This document shows positions 11,201-15,493 of a stretch of 21,613 nt of DNA, in pieces. Each line of letters begins with the position of its first letter. The first letter of the stretch is position 1. The notes below the pieces were generated by a model. That model did no database searches and was not told where the DNA came from. It worked only from the letters and a program-made list of their open reading frames with translations. The position numbers and the translations under genes were made by a program. This stretch comes from a virus, in the IMG/VR virus record IMGVR_UViG_3300030102_000651, positions 1-21,613 of that record; one strand, 5' to 3'.

Positions 11201-11722
11201 GGTGAATTAGAACGTAGTATAGAAAACTTTTTACCTCCAGGTCTAGCAAACATATTTAAAGTCGTGCCTTCTCCCCTAGGTGGCAGGTTATCAGAAGTGG
11301 GATATGAAACACGAAGAGGAGACCCTATATTTGATGACGTTACAGGTGGAGATTTAGCAGGTATACTATTTGGTTTTCCTCCCGTTGAATATACAAACAC
11401 TATGGAGAAAAATAATATAAAGAAAAATATAGATACCTCCATCAATAAGAAAAGAAGTAAAATATTAAAACGTTATTACATCGCTGCCCGCACAGGTAAT
11501 TCAGCGCATATGAATGAGGCTCTAAAAGATTTAGTAGCTTTTAATCAACGGCATCCTCTAGCACCGATTACAGTAGACTCTATAGTAAGGTCTATGAAAA
11601 GGCATATAGAACAGTCTAAAAACATACGACAGCACAACGGGGTGTCGATATCATCTACAAATAAGAATTTAATAACACTGCACGAAGGGCAGTTTGACAA
11701 TGATTATACTTTCTTTGATTAA
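5222..11722 (+). CDS. Giant polyvalent virion protein with zinc-metallopeptidase motif
   Basis: A 2166-aa protein starting one base after the preceding stop. Residues 1-37 form a short module (YEIYKKDG...GASTEELVELYL) that I associate with N-termini of large phage virion proteins. Residues 60-285 are Gly/Ala-rich and membrane-like. Residues 285-600 are highly charged, with two related helical repeats (401-444 and 484-527). HEAAH at 1075-1079, followed by DEFVAEAF (Glu1119 and Glu1123 as candidate third ligands), is a zincin-type metallopeptidase signature. About 1600-2070 is a conserved helical region with a hydrophobic segment at 1879-1910, resembling domains reported in large polyvalent proteins of phages and conjugative elements. 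Such proteins are thought to be packaged, injected and active in the new host. The peptidase call is good; other domain names are uncertain. Confidence 0.8.
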   Translation: MPTYEIYKKDGTPVRVEGPEGASTEELVELYLSKKDKPITRSDIMKEYRARAEEIRRRTPLTIGEQVGEGFKGVGSGIANLLESGALGAATILPEKGELALREKIQSAGDVVQDYLAPDERVGGISTAIPRKFGEALGSFGGILGASIINPIAGGALAVGAGAGEASERAREGEATEEERATASKLGAVVGASELINPLRIIKTFKAFRSAVGDEVTTDIVSKGRRILREAGLEGLQEFSAGVAQNFIERGIYNPEQGAFEGSKEAFGYGAGVGGFVQAIVEMIAPRRRGVRDDTETDDAGSGTRPGDDTQREEGGPTDKNVADAVEEVTASGLDTTGTTTGPNNVGKGAKDVTLEEEKADPRNLTEEEKIEAKKIKKEIEKRRKAKTKEGSGITTEAQELLNKIEGGVLPALNNNVKRILRANGIKVGKNTKPEDAINELRAKVTQPKDTEKKVEFKDVPVEQDPVKRYSGVTPTAARLISRLDEEGISTTSFAVTPEMRRAMKANGLDVPVGMTQAEALEALREKGESESTPPKKEVVFKDKKEEEGPEAGFVDTTKQGKTVVEEDNIDDEDAYAQVEEAFSDKVDETDPFRISKETIRQEFKPRFKELDDTFLPQIDQIVKEKGGKSSEAIAIRDQYNSARRTLLGQLTKAISDAAVKIRRGGTEPQELTTPGGKKYTVVKYDPKKRPKALKIDDAADVKRSVQNQKAQIAKEQRDKKADEALDALARKQEQEKRVKDRAKVKDLTQKHTAWFEQNASDDDALIDKNFFKGTKEVEDDTNARDKATLISLAIGQTKVKDKDRPAEAARDYLQRYSNTAYALEVIAHDMILQDIELVKKKDKDGKVMKDAISGRVKYKEKVTPIEKYRRPDDFLKMEKRIGPVSETEQLFLAAERIRKGTGQIRANNAVKWMKDNAPSAYKTILKLKQAEVNERAKISRQINSDSSILANLGTKKTAVDADGNLYSTDANADFLNIRTSEVLGMSIKFHPDVRALLKAGEFKKALEYLGKRNENNFIPSRITKLAKLFAENVGTTKVVLNANLPKDTAGLFDPKTNTIELHPDRGMNPHVLIHEAAHAFTSATLAQPSNVTTKQLNTLFNDVKDSIDTAYGSKNLDEFVAEAFANQEFRQQLARITPKGKPLSALRRFGNIIANMLRRLLGEKLVPLQNILRTDTALNTVDPLLESILAPAPDSRNAGVFSMASDQVGVRQLLKSLGKQAQTKAMDSVEKNAWLDGFSEVVYRLKNWIQQFVLGFTDSLVAGDLADRNGFKGLGFQLNDALLRQRGSLDDANRNFDDAIRKVIGILKKNPGMEALLNDLIYDETFGATIWQIDPLGKRPTDADLASRYDKQQAIIKKLNDKFGKDKWKDVYTTQRDYYKANFKDLKDILFGRIKSELDGKSATKIKNIFEKIFDDKELIVYFPLIRQGTYKISYIAKDAEARGLKDPFVVEMVSSINEQNRRLKEIKAQGLADGEPQVTDTQSDFNKYIRENAPPTSFVRQVMDIIDQSKLGDTKTKALKESVGELFINALPETSYAKSLQRRTGNPGHGKNMLEAFRIKGFNLGRDVVKLQYSAEISGIEADIAKIAEENQGNKYMQNLAGELMKRSKFARQGANYKELEKWFKNANQGAFLYTIGFNTSSAIVNLSQIPLFVYPYLGAEYGLGKAGKAIANAYRRVANAKNSIDNYFEVIEGEYVLKKDLKVSPEEAQDLKKFAMLVKVAQSRGQLTRSYMMDALGLDEAGRRKTGDWRSLANNLVAISAIPFNQAERLNRQVTLMAAYDLALQDGTLSEEEAAFKALRQTQETNGGAVLETAPRWAQQGLGRVALMYKSYGIRMYTTMMQTSKEYLDNMFAPTEGETAQERAERLNAKRIARNKLIGVHASALLFAGIQGIPLYGAFEVIANLFFLDDEEEDFDSVVRSYVGEQGFKGAINSLTGVDVATRIRLTGLLLNENRYNRDASLEESLFFMFGGPAYSTAKRIQQGFKDANEGELERSIENFLPPGLANIFKVVPSPLGGRLSEVGYETRRGDPIFDDVTGGDLAGILFGFPPVEYTNTMEKNNIKKNIDTSINKKRSKILKRYYIAARTGNSAHMNEALKDLVAFNQRHPLAPITVDSIVRSMKRHIEQSKNIRQHNGVSISSTNKNLITLHEGQFDNDYTFFD
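6422..6802 (+). repeat. Two diverged 44-residue repeats in the giant virion protein
   Basis: Residues 401-444 and 484-527 align without gaps, with about 11 identities by eye, including KRILRANG against RRAMKANG and INELRAK against LEALREK. Each copy is followed by a similar charged linker (VEFKDVPVEQDP and VVFKDKKEEEGP). The helix-turn/loop-helix pattern resembles HeH/SAP-type nucleic-acid-binding motifs, which is an inference. Confidence 0.5.
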
Positions 11723-11749
11723 AAAAGGTGACCACCCGAAGATGGTCAC
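11721..11749 (-). terminator. Rho-independent terminator of the leftward operon
   Basis: On the minus strand, GTGACCATC-TTCG-GGTGGTCAC forms a 9-bp stem (one U-G wobble) closed by a cUUCGg tetraloop, followed at once by CTTTTTT. It lies 45 bases past the stop of the last leftward gene. This is the classic form for stopping the replication operon before it runs into the oppositely oriented virion genes. Read rightward, the same hairpin lacks a T tract. Confidence 0.85.
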
Positions 11750-11763
11750 ATAAGAGAAAGAGA

Positions 11764-11784
11764 GTGACAAGCATAACCTGTCAC
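11764..11784 (+). terminator. Weak hairpin, possible terminator for the rightward virion genes
   Basis: GTGACA and TGTCAC form a 6-bp stem around a 9-base loop, followed by CCTACATTT with only a short T run. It sits 41 bases after the last virion gene, between the converging arms. Its half-sites are nearly the same as those of the adjacent strong terminator (GTGACC/GGTCAC), so alternative pairing between the two is possible. Confidence 0.35.
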
Positions 11785-11794
11785 CCTACATTTA

Positions 11795-12028
11795 TCACAA
11801 AATCCTCCAAATGCGAACACCTAATTTGTTATCCTCTACACGCACATGCGTTTCTACGTCCCAACCTTTTGTTTTTGCTACGTTTTTTATTTGTTTTACT
11901 GCCTCCTGAACGTTCACACAGAGGATAAACACAGAGGAACCTGCCACCATACTACCCCAGTTTACGACTATTCGTACTCCATCAGGGTTTAAATCATCCG
12001 ATTTTAATATTCCCTGCCGTAATCTCAT
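11795..12028 (-). CDS. Small conserved phage protein of unknown function
   Basis: A 77-aa protein, the last gene of the leftward operon. The ATG start lies inside the end of the primase-helicase gene, giving a 35-base overlap in another frame. It has a short basic N-terminus, then VVNWGSMVAGSSVFILCVN, an amphipathic helix (EAVKQIKNVAKTKGW) and ENRV-like charged strands ending KLGVRIWRIL. I associate this GSSVF...GW...RV...GVRVWR layout with small proteins near phage replication genes, but no function is known to me. The alternating strand-helix-strand pattern suggests a small alpha/beta fold. The strong terminator follows 45 bases after its stop. Confidence 0.65.
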   Translation of the reverse strand: MRLRQGILKSDDLNPDGVRIVVNWGSMVAGSSVFILCVNVQEAVKQIKNVAKTKGWDVETHVRVEDNKLGVRIWRIL

Positions 12029-14741
12029 CGTTTATAGAACAGTCAACTTGTATAACCCATGTAGGTGGTAAGTTCATGTGTGTGCCTCTACTGAGTCGCA
12101 TCTTAGTCTTTGTGGCCCCTAGCTTAGTTGTAAGGTCTTGTAGAAACGAGTTATAGTTTATCTGATGCTCACCACACCATGCCTTCAAAGGTTTAGGTAC
12201 AAGAAATGCACGTTTCAAATCTGTCTCGTATCGGGCTACAAGTTTACCTCTTGGTAAAGCTTCAGGTATAACAAGGTTAGCCACGTCACCCTCTTGTTTA
12301 CGCAGGTCTTCTGTGCTTTTTATCCATAGCACATTGCTCCAATGTTCGTGTATGTAGTCGTTGAGTGTCTCTTCTACAGATATACTCATGTCCTCGACCT
12401 GACGTTTGTTCTCTTTCAAACGTTCTACAGCCCACTGAAATAATTTTTTGGTGTCATACTGCACCAGACCACAACGTTTTGCCAGTATGATGCCCGTCAA
12501 CGTGCAAGCAACAAGCACTGACCAATATCTGTTCTCAGCTGTAAGCCCTGCTTTAGCGTCCACTTTCTCCTGTACCTGACGTATCAGCTTCTGTACCTCT
12601 TCTAGGTTCTCCATGACGTGTTTTATAAAAACTTTACCCGCGTGTCCGTAGTTGTTTTGTAGACAGGTGCTGAACACATCTGTTTCTTCTTTTGTCTCAA
12701 ACTGCATTCGGCTAACACGACACTCCAATATGCGCTGTGCTTCTGCTTTTGGCATGGCTTTTATGATACTTATGCGCTCTACCATGCTTGTGTTACCTGT
12801 AGTCACAGCCAGTAGCTTCCACGCTTCGCCTCTGTGACGTTCCACGTTACTGCTTGCTGACATACGTCCACGCTGTCTACCCCCAGTTAGTTGGTATGCT
12901 AGATTAGACAACTCTTTACCTGAAGTATTTGTAAGCTCGTCCATATACATTGGCAAGTTATGGTATATCTCACCTCTGTTCATCTTAGTGTTATACGTGT
13001 CTCGCTCATGCATAATCAAATCTTCTGGACTGCCCCACACCGATGCCCCTGCTACCATAGCGGTTGTCTTACCCACACCTGACTCCTTACTGTATATATG
13101 TAAAGCAGCGCAGTTTATGGGGGAAAACTTCATCAGTGGAGATCCGAAAGATGTACCCAGAACAAACTGATGCAGTTCAAAATTATCACGATTGTAAAAG
13201 TTTACTGTATCTTTCCAATCCTCCAACGTACCTTTGGGTTCAAAAGACGGGAACAAACTTGCTGTGGGTGTAGAGGGTGGATTAAATTTTGCCCCGTCTA
13301 CTGTTATCTCTTCGCTGCCAAGCACAAAACCTCCGCAATCGTCATCTGTCCACCCAAACTGTCTACGAGCTTCTTCTGCCACGCTCTTCGCTTGTAATTG
13401 TGTTACCCATGTAGTTGTGTATGCCATTATATCATCCATTCTTAGTACAGCTATGCCGTGCATAGACAGTTGTTTTCTTAACTCCTCCTTAGATGTTACA
13501 GAAGTCAACGGAACTGTAAACTCTCTTATACCATCTTGAGGCAGATGCAAACGCATGACAATAGCTTCACCCACCTCTACATCCATGATACGTTTGACTA
13601 CGTACAAGTCGTTTTGGTATATCACTTTGTCTTCTATGTTACCATCTTTGTCTTTAAAACGCATGTACACACCACCATTCGCCCCTCTAAAGTACGGCTC
13701 TGGGTATAACGGTATGTCCTTTGACGCAGGTGCTTTCCTTATACCTTTACCTAACACTATCGGTGACGCTATCTTATCCCAATGAGGACAAGCTGAACAC
13801 GTGGTTGGGTCTTCTTCTGCAAACTTAGCGCATGTATACGGACCTTTTATAAGGTCTGCTTTCTCTTCTGTCAGATACTGATTGTATTCTGGGTGTCTTT
13901 CAGACATCTTATGTACAGCTTTGTCAGCGTCATTACAAAACTTGGCTATAGATAAACCTGCTCTCCATAAAGGTTCGCTTATATCCTGTTGGTTCTCCAT
14001 AATATTCTTAATCTGCTCACACCCAACACCTTTTACAGTTTTGTCAAGTATAACTTTAAAGCTGTTCTCAGAGTTCTCTATCATGGCTTTCTTAAAAGCG
14101 TTCTCTTCGTTATCTACTTTAGTTGGTATACTGATGCCCTCTGCACCTATAAGCCTAGAGAACTCGTCAAACTCTACGCTACGAAACTCACCCGTACCAA
14201 AGAACATAACAGGTTTTTGTGTGCCACGTTTATGGTTCTGTGTTCCAGGAACTCTAAGCACACGTGCAGCATCGGCAGTTACACCATTGTCTGCTGACAA
14301 GTTATGACGTATACATGCATCTTTCAGCGCCTGCGCTACAGGTAGCCATTCAGCATAAGACACACTATCGTTAAGAACCCAGTACACATGTATCCCATAC
14401 CCAGAGTTAATTAACATGGGTCGAGGTAATCCTGTTGCTTTTACAAACCTTTTTAAGTCATGAAAAGCTGTGTTCTGGTCGGGATATTCTTTACCCACAC
14501 CGCAATCTAAATCTAAGTAAAAAGAACTTAAACTCTTTACATTTGTTACCCGTCTATCTTTATTTGTTTCGAATGTGGCTAAACCAAAGTATGCATTTAT
14601 ACCTTGAGCATCTAACTCGTTAGCCCTGCTTATTACATCGTCTATAGTTGCATGGAAGCTCTGTACCTTCTTATCCCCAAGACCTAGTACAGAATAATAT
14701 CCATCACCTAAAACCTTCTCTAAAAATTTTTTTGTTTCCAT
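11994..14741 (-). CDS. Primase-helicase: AEP-type primase fused to P-loop helicase
   Basis: A 915-aa bifunctional replication protein expected to lay down primers and unwind DNA at the fork. The N-terminal domain (about 1-200) has archaeo-eukaryotic primase motifs: YLDLD (Asp77, Asp79), SGYGIHVYW (His118) and RVLRVPGTQNHK (161-171). A Cys/His cluster (Cys304, Cys315, Cys318, His320) looks like a zinc-binding linker. The C-terminal ATPase has Walker A SGVGKTT (554-560) and Walker B LPMYMDEL (596-603), as in DUF927-like superfamily 3 type helicases. ATG 14741 is chosen over an upstream TTG at 14774 because AAGGTGGG lies 5-12 bases ahead of the ATG and nothing suitable precedes the TTG. The leader can form a pseudoknot that may control translation. 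It follows the SSB gene. Confidence 0.85.
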   Translation of the reverse strand: METKKFLEKVLGDGYYSVLGLGDKKVQSFHATIDDVISRANELDAQGINAYFGLATFETNKDRRVTNVKSLSSFYLDLDCGVGKEYPDQNTAFHDLKRFVKATGLPRPMLINSGYGIHVYWVLNDSVSYAEWLPVAQALKDACIRHNLSADNGVTADAARVLRVPGTQNHKRGTQKPVMFFGTGEFRSVEFDEFSRLIGAEGISIPTKVDNEENAFKKAMIENSENSFKVILDKTVKGVGCEQIKNIMENQQDISEPLWRAGLSIAKFCNDADKAVHKMSERHPEYNQYLTEEKADLIKGPYTCAKFAEEDPTTCSACPHWDKIASPIVLGKGIRKAPASKDIPLYPEPYFRGANGGVYMRFKDKDGNIEDKVIYQNDLYVVKRIMDVEVGEAIVMRLHLPQDGIREFTVPLTSVTSKEELRKQLSMHGIAVLRMDDIMAYTTTWVTQLQAKSVAEEARRQFGWTDDDCGGFVLGSEEITVDGAKFNPPSTPTASLFPSFEPKGTLEDWKDTVNFYNRDNFELHQFVLGTSFGSPLMKFSPINCAALHIYSKESGVGKTTAMVAGASVWGSPEDLIMHERDTYNTKMNRGEIYHNLPMYMDELTNTSGKELSNLAYQLTGGRQRGRMSASSNVERHRGEAWKLLAVTTGNTSMVERISIIKAMPKAEAQRILECRVSRMQFETKEETDVFSTCLQNNYGHAGKVFIKHVMENLEEVQKLIRQVQEKVDAKAGLTAENRYWSVLVACTLTGIILAKRCGLVQYDTKKLFQWAVERLKENKRQVEDMSISVEETLNDYIHEHWSNVLWIKSTEDLRKQEGDVANLVIPEALPRGKLVARYETDLKRAFLVPKPLKAWCGEHQINYNSFLQDLTTKLGATKTKMRLSRGTHMNLPPTWVIQVDCSINDEITAGNIKIG

Positions 14742-14745
14742 TTTT

Positions 14746-14817
14746 CCCACCTTGTGCCGAAGACACCACGACAAGATACGGCACGTTATCCTTTCGGCAA
14801 AAGCCTAGTCGTGGTGT
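14746..14817 (-). promoter_or_regulatory. Candidate pseudoknotted leader RNA upstream of the primase-helicase
   Basis: On the minus strand, ACACCACGAC (14817-14808) pairs perfectly with GTCGTGGTGT (14772-14763). Within its loop, TGCCGAA (14799-14793) pairs with TTCGGCA (14761-14755), which lies one base past the first stem, giving an H-type pseudoknot. The primase ribosome binding site AAGGTGGG (14753-14746) comes right after it. A competing 6-bp stem, GTGCCG (14784-14779) with CGGCAC (14759-14754), would use the same 3' strand. This suggests a translational switch, an RNA-processing site or an origin-like structure. I cannot match it to a named riboswitch or ribozyme. Confidence 0.55.
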
Positions 14818-14824
14818 AGTTCTA

Positions 14825-15493
14825 TTAGTCGTCCCAATCGTCAACGATAGAACTCAAGTTGCCATCAGCATCCTTGGTGGGAGGGGAGGGCTTCTTAGCA
14901 ACTTTCTTTGGCTCTGCCACAGCATCCTCTACTTCAGTATCCTCTGCATCAAAAGGATTATCCTCTTTCGCCTCAAACACATATCCATCAGTTTCTTCAA
15001 ATGGATTTTTGTCTTCATAAGGTATGTACTTTATAACCTGTACTCCTCTAAGACGCAGTGAAACATTCTGCTTGCCACCCATGTCATATGGAACAAACGA
15101 TACAGCTATATTAACTGTACTACCTGTGGTCAACAAGAAGTCTGCGGGTAATCTGTTACCCTTGGCATCAACCTGTATGGGTTTAGCGGTGGTTTGATTC
15201 TTATACGCACCTTTTAAATTAGCCTTATGCGTAAACATACCTTCGTCATCTTTGACAAACATACGCTCTAACTTCTCTGCCCACTTGTCTTTTCTATTGG
15301 CTTGGTATACTTCAGACATCGCAAAGTATAAGTCTTTGGCAGTAGCATTATCCATACGAAACTGTATAGAATACTCTGCGCCATCAGCCGTGGCATCACA
15401 TGTTACAGACCTACCTGCTTTGCTATCAAAGTGGTAAGTTGTGTTTATCTTAGGCCACAAAGCCTCTACGTTTTTTATAATATATTGTTCCAT
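14825..15493 (-). CDS. Phage ssDNA-binding protein, T7 gp2.5-like
   Basis: A 222-aa protein whose beta-rich first two thirds (about 1-155) suit an OB fold, for example SIQFRMDNATAKDLYF and TVNIAVSFVPYDMGGKQNV. A disordered Asp/Glu-rich segment follows, then a Lys/Pro-rich stretch, ending in an acidic tail DDWDD. Acidic tails of this kind in phage and bacterial SSBs contact polymerase and helicase partners. It lies directly upstream of the primase-helicase in the same operon and near the polymerase, as expected for a replisome SSB. Its ATG has an AAGGAG ribosome binding site. The assignment rests on layout and the acidic tail; the fold itself is not proven here. Confidence 0.75.
   Translation of the reverse strand: MEQYIIKNVEALWPKINTTYHFDSKAGRSVTCDATADGAEYSIQFRMDNATAKDLYFAMSEVYQANRKDKWAEKLERMFVKDDEGMFTHKANLKGAYKNQTTAKPIQVDAKGNRLPADFLLTTGSTVNIAVSFVPYDMGGKQNVSLRLRGVQVIKYIPYEDKNPFEETDGYVFEAKEDNPFDAEDTEVEDAVAEPKKVAKKPSPPTKDADGNLSSIVDDWDD

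Follow-up and report, generated by a model that had tools for sequence, protein, structure and literature searches.

What kind of element separates two replication genes in this viral genome, and how does it bear on the gene that follows? The window, i.e., the whole stretch of DNA analysed, comprises 21,613 nucleotides (positions 1 to 21,613 of IMG/VR virus record IMGVR_UViG_3300030102_000651). It contains a leader element between the end of the open reading frame for a single-stranded DNA-binding protein (SSB; 14825) and the start codon of a primase-helicase (14741). At 11722-11994, a plus-strand gene array meets the minus-strand replication operon in convergent orientation. The immediate surroundings of the leader are as follows.

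11994-14741, minus strand: primase-helicase gene, putatively controlled by the leader (915 aa; DUF927; PHROG annotation DNA primase/helicase)
14825-15493, minus strand: gene of a Gp2.5-like single-stranded DNA-binding protein, the upstream neighbour (PHROG 112, E = 5e-18)
14753-14746, minus strand: Shine-Dalgarno sequence AAGGUGGG (= AAGGTGGG), read directly; it adjoins the pseudoknot

A search of IMG/VR with the primase yielded 223 related stretches, 80 of which were kept. In almost all of the kept relatives that have upstream sequence, the element is located directly before the start codon, and each phage record tested carries a single copy. Comparison of these homologues indicates that the leader is a three-way junction of the helices P1, P2, and P3, with a pseudoknot between the loop of P3 and a strand on the 3' side of P1, instead of the simple H-type knot proposed by the sequence-only reading. 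The perfect 10-bp stem on which that proposal was built is present exactly at its minus-strand coordinates and corresponds to P1. A covariance model matches the window only once, at 14748-14820, with 72.0 bits. The parts of the junction are listed in the order of the minus strand.

14764-14816, minus strand: core of the three-way junction, from the 5' strand to the 3' strand of P1 (covariance model match and covariation)
14817-14808 with 14772-14763, minus strand: P1 in its 10-bp form, ACACCACGAC with GTCGTGGTGT (perfect pairing, coordinates checked)
14808-14816, minus strand: 5' strand of P1, CACCACGAC, which pairs with 14772-14764; A14817 adds the tenth pair in the window sequence
14806-14807, minus strand: junction linker UA (identical in all 75 sequences)
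14796-14805, minus strand: P2 hairpin GGC-UUUU-GCC (third pair with two-sided change in 27 of 75 sequences)
14792-14795, minus strand: junction linker GAAA (GAA nearly invariant)
14774-14791, minus strand: P3 hairpin GGAUA/UAUCU with the 8-nt loop L3 (14786-14779, ACGUGCCG) (covariation)
14764-14772, minus strand: 3' strand of P1, GUCGUGGUG (read in the sequence; covariation of P1)

There is extensive covariation supporting the three helices, and the compensatory changes that had been proposed as a check on homologous gaps are present in P1, P2, and P3. Among 75 relatives, 96.6% of the positions in P1/P2/P3 are paired, with 232 two-sided changes compared to 65 +/- 8 in shuffles, and pairing falls to 31-61% when the partner strand is slid by 1-3 columns; a set of 25 separate prophage elements is 95.9% paired, with two-sided changes in 15 of the 16 pairs. 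Both alignments were fitted to the model and hence lean towards it, whereas an alignment of 48 sequences that was not so fitted still shows 96.1% pairing and 118 two-sided cells (38 in shuffles). Over 75 sequences, pairing reaches 97.4% in P1, where seven of the nine pairs show two-sided changes; in the close clade, it is 100% in P3, where four of the five pairs do so. The folding energy of the leader is modest (z = -1.28 with flanks; z = -2.67 for the trimmed element).

The alignment follows the order P1, UA, P2, GAAA(A), P3, CU, P1', succeeded by GUGUCUY in most marine members. The linkers UA, GAAA, and CU are nearly invariant across the set; the junction of the window has UA and GAAA, and its third linker contains a U (14773). 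One relative (L045) carries a long variant of P2. Five others (L047, L048, L053, L078, and L079) are reduced but, as judged by eye, keep P1, and three of them (L048, L078, and L079) also keep the loop-to-3' pairing. Pattern scans of viral contigs revealed many further diverged members. The P1-P2-P3 order and the GAAA linker are reminiscent of a hammerhead of type I, but inspection revealed no CUGANGA core, and no Rfam ribozyme matched.

Two stems compete for the strand between P1 and the ribosome binding site. One is the 7-bp pairing of TGCCGAA (14799-14793) with TTCGGCA (14761-14755), regarded by the sequence-only reading as the second stem of its knot; the other is a 6-bp pairing of GTGCCG (14784-14779) with CGGCAC (14759-14754), regarded as its rival. 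Both are perfect in the window and share the same 3' strand, as had been noted; a single base separates the 7-bp stem from the first stem on one side and from AAGGTGGG on the other, whereas the 6-bp pairing lies directly before 14753-14746. The strands of the latter are as follows.

14779-14784, minus strand: 5' strand of the pseudoknot, GUGCCG, within L3
14754-14759, minus strand: 3' strand of the pseudoknot, CGGCAC (site 1), located 13-18 nt ahead of the start codon

Across 19 close relatives, L3 retains its pairing with CGGCAC to 99.1%, with two-sided changes in two pairs; in L011 and L013, both strands have changed in concert to GUGUCA/UGACAC, a double compensatory change. By contrast, the 7-bp stem is only 83.5% paired, has no pair with a two-sided change, is broken in L011 and L013, and is matched or surpassed by every shuffle; moreover, it requires bases of P2. 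The supposed rival is therefore the true pseudoknot, and the 7-bp stem, although present and perfect in the window, does not have that role. The two exclusive states postulated for the window are not supported, since one of the two stems lacks covariation and is lost in L011 and L013.

Swap tests agree with this assignment: native L3 and site 1 are more complementary to each other than to swapped partners both in marine members (p = 0.0024; 21 clusters) and in prophage members (p < 5e-5; 35 clusters), although such tests overstate independence because the sequences share ancestry. When each L3 type is represented once (similarity cut 0.75), the marine signal at site 1 weakens to p = 0.02, whereas the prophage signals stay at p near 0; after coarser merging of L3 types, the marine signal is not significant (p = 0.30; five clusters). 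Among the marine members inspected, no convincing pseudoknot was found in the L086/L189 group, L102, L112, L204, L205, and L250. The P3 loop of L086, L189, L195, L199, L201, and L246 contains the palindrome CUGCAG without a clear downstream complement, and a loop-loop dimerisation of this marine subgroup is conceivable. Other members without a good pseudoknot (L082, L102, L112, L103, and L165) show a possible complementarity between the loops of P2 and P3, e.g., UUGC/GCAA; in L082, L102, and L103, this loop-loop contact was seen by eye.

Does the leader belong to a known RNA class? Comparison of the window with Rfam gave no match to RF02996 and no other meaningful match at gathering, nor did the region at E up to 10; weak matches to BSnc115 and GlsR6 were rejected as chance. 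To this extent, the earlier statement that the element could not be matched to a known class still holds; it does not hold for relatives at the same site, as 6 of 18 marine primase-leader records match int-alpA (RF02996) above gathering, precisely at the element. The Rfam model of this class was built independently. In the opposite direction, a covariance model built mostly from marine leaders (R1) detected the element in 18 out of 401 genomes from a single bacterial family, where weak finds, e.g., L291, may be due to chance; most of the strong finds are named int-alpA by Rfam, with up to 67.7 bits. A second model built exclusively from 38 marine leaders (R3) recovered 33 of 50 prophage-side loci. 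The relationship between marine leaders and int-alpA is thus supported both ways. Of 369 genomes sampled from the wider class, 39 contain RF02996 itself above its cut-off. BLASTN with the leader or a prophage element yielded no match in named phages, and a strict pattern run against bacterial genomes gave mostly chance matches, of which only that in an Acidovorax prophage (L269) was accepted as real.

On the strength of these comparisons, the leader is best described as representing a divergent marine-phage clade of the orphan int-alpA class. Both have the same order of P1, UA, P2, GAAAA, P3, CU, and P1', as borne out by covariation and the Rfam consensus structure, and the same conserved junction bases. 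Because RF02996 has no match in the close clade of the window, we consider the latter an outlying clade and do not file it as a formal member of the family. The genomic setting also differs: int-alpA follows the integrase gene in prophages, whereas the leader precedes the primase-helicase gene in marine contigs, and the window has SSB and primase-helicase in place of integrase and alpA as neighbours. The class was reportedly described in a paper of 2017. Within the literature searched, int-alpA turned up in one paper, as an entry in a table of predicted small RNAs, with the remark that it had not been followed up.

The position of the element points to a function in cis. The next open reading frame starts 16-68 nt (median 26) past P1 in 99 of 100 elements (starts were assigned by rule, without a random control); in the window, 22 nt separate the end of P1 from the AUG. 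The downstream genes vary, encoding a primase-helicase, a DUF1376 primosomal protein, an HNH protein, a methyltransferase, or, in many cases, unknown products, and an E. coli member is located between an integrase gene and the next open reading frame. Given this variety downstream, and upstream as well (integrase or others), none of the neighbouring genes can supply a partner shared by all members. Like a riboswitch, the element is a 5' leader with a structure that reaches the expression platform.

In prophage members, L3 has a second possible partner. L3 is more complementary to its own second site (at or near the Shine-Dalgarno sequence) than to swapped sites (p < 5e-5), a signal that is absent from marine members in the same test (p = 0.50). 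Since prophage L3 covaries with the Shine-Dalgarno sequence as well as with site 1, two mutually exclusive pairings are possible. Many prophage int-alpA elements, among them L280, L282, L287, L290, L296, and L314, contain the complement of L3 twice, once immediately after P1 and once in the Shine-Dalgarno sequence, often within a small hairpin loop; in L314, it is AGGAAG both times. Hairpins enclosing the Shine-Dalgarno sequence are mildly enriched in prophage members, only in comparison with mononucleotide shuffles, and were given no weight. The prophage element at L207:4039-4176 is followed by a reading frame of 13 codons with a stop codon that overlaps the next gene's start, which suggests translational coupling.

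We consider it likely, on balance, that the leader of the primase-helicase gene is a cis-acting member of a marine int-alpA clade, in which a pseudoknot at the Shine-Dalgarno sequence allows a factor to tune translation. Comparison shows the fold with its pseudoknot, the kinship with int-alpA, and the constant location before a start codon; we infer the rest. The P3 loop would pair with the strand just 3' of P1 and form a stable pseudoknot beside the Shine-Dalgarno sequence. Lying within the footprint of the 30S subunit, it would lower translation initiation, and a factor bound at the conserved junction might shift the frequency with which the pseudoknot forms. The synthesis of primase-helicase would thereby be tuned after the polycistronic mRNA is made, so that the pseudoknot probably gates the amount of replication protein produced. 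In prophages, site 1 and the Shine-Dalgarno sequence may serve as alternative partners of the loop, which would create two exclusive states; the marine clade lacks the second pairing. Two suggestions of the sequence-only reading gain from the homologues: the pseudoknotted leader adjoining the ribosome binding site of the primase-helicase is borne out by a conserved fold, which is best understood as a translational switch.

In the translational riboswitches SAM-II and preQ1-II, a pseudoknot forms at the Shine-Dalgarno sequence. The leader resembles them in the pairing of a loop with a strand at or next to the ribosome binding site and in the high conservation of unpaired core bases, but it differs in its junction and motifs, has no match to the Rfam models of these riboswitches, and precedes genes that share no metabolic theme.

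Among the alternatives to a factor-tuned int-alpA switch, a protein operator fares best, although we judge it rather unlikely. SSB, the primase-helicase, or a host RNA-binding protein would stabilise the pseudoknot and block translation, in the manner of gp32 of phage T4, which represses the translation of its own mRNA (PMC535899). The location of the window's leader directly downstream of an SSB gene and upstream of a replication gene would fit such an operator, and a protein might contact the junction bases, which are nearly invariant. The T4 gene 32 operator shares with the leader a phage replication gene, a leader pseudoknot, and a proposed translational control, but it precedes the SSB gene that it regulates, whereas the element in the window follows the SSB gene. 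We know of no three-way junction in the T4 operator. The non-marine members examined are flanked by unrelated genes, with integrase or others upstream and no common adjacent partner, which leaves the autoregulation by SSB envisaged earlier unsupported as a general function.

An improbable alternative is a small RNA that acts in trans or is a product of mRNA processing, either cut out or transcribed alone. Rfam files the family under this type (Gene; sRNA), and many prophage members, e.g., L285, have a U-rich run after P1, which is absent from the clade of the window. The position of the element argues for cis instead: the 3' strand of the pseudoknot lies past P1, beside or inside the ribosome binding site, the open reading frame starts at a narrow distance in nearly all members, and the L3 of prophages covaries with the Shine-Dalgarno sequence.

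A DNA element, i.e., a replication origin or a single-strand initiation hairpin, would suit the position before a replication gene in marine phages but is very improbable, because many members are located downstream of integrase genes and upstream of genes without a role in replication and because the excess of G-U over A-C cells (72 vs 16) indicates selection on one strand as RNA, namely the mRNA strand. Least credible of all is an H-type knot in which P1 and the 7-bp stem alternate with the 6-bp pairing: perfect stems in the window weigh little against a stem that takes bases from the covarying P2 and is lost where its rival survives by double compensation.

The recognition of the marine leaders as relatives extends int-alpA to marine phages and gives it a new gene partner, the primase-helicase. 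The class also gains a pseudoknot supported by covariation and, in its prophage members, a further pairing of the loop with the Shine-Dalgarno sequence. A broader reading, which we put forward tentatively, is that int-alpA including its marine clade may be a cis switch, in which the P3 loop picks either a decoy strand or the Shine-Dalgarno sequence and the junction senses a metabolite or protein of the host, so that unrelated phages might tune early or replication genes with the same sensor. The data argue that int-alpA acts in cis on translation, which turns an orphan class into a concrete, testable hypothesis and raises the chance that one shared sensor is used by many phages.
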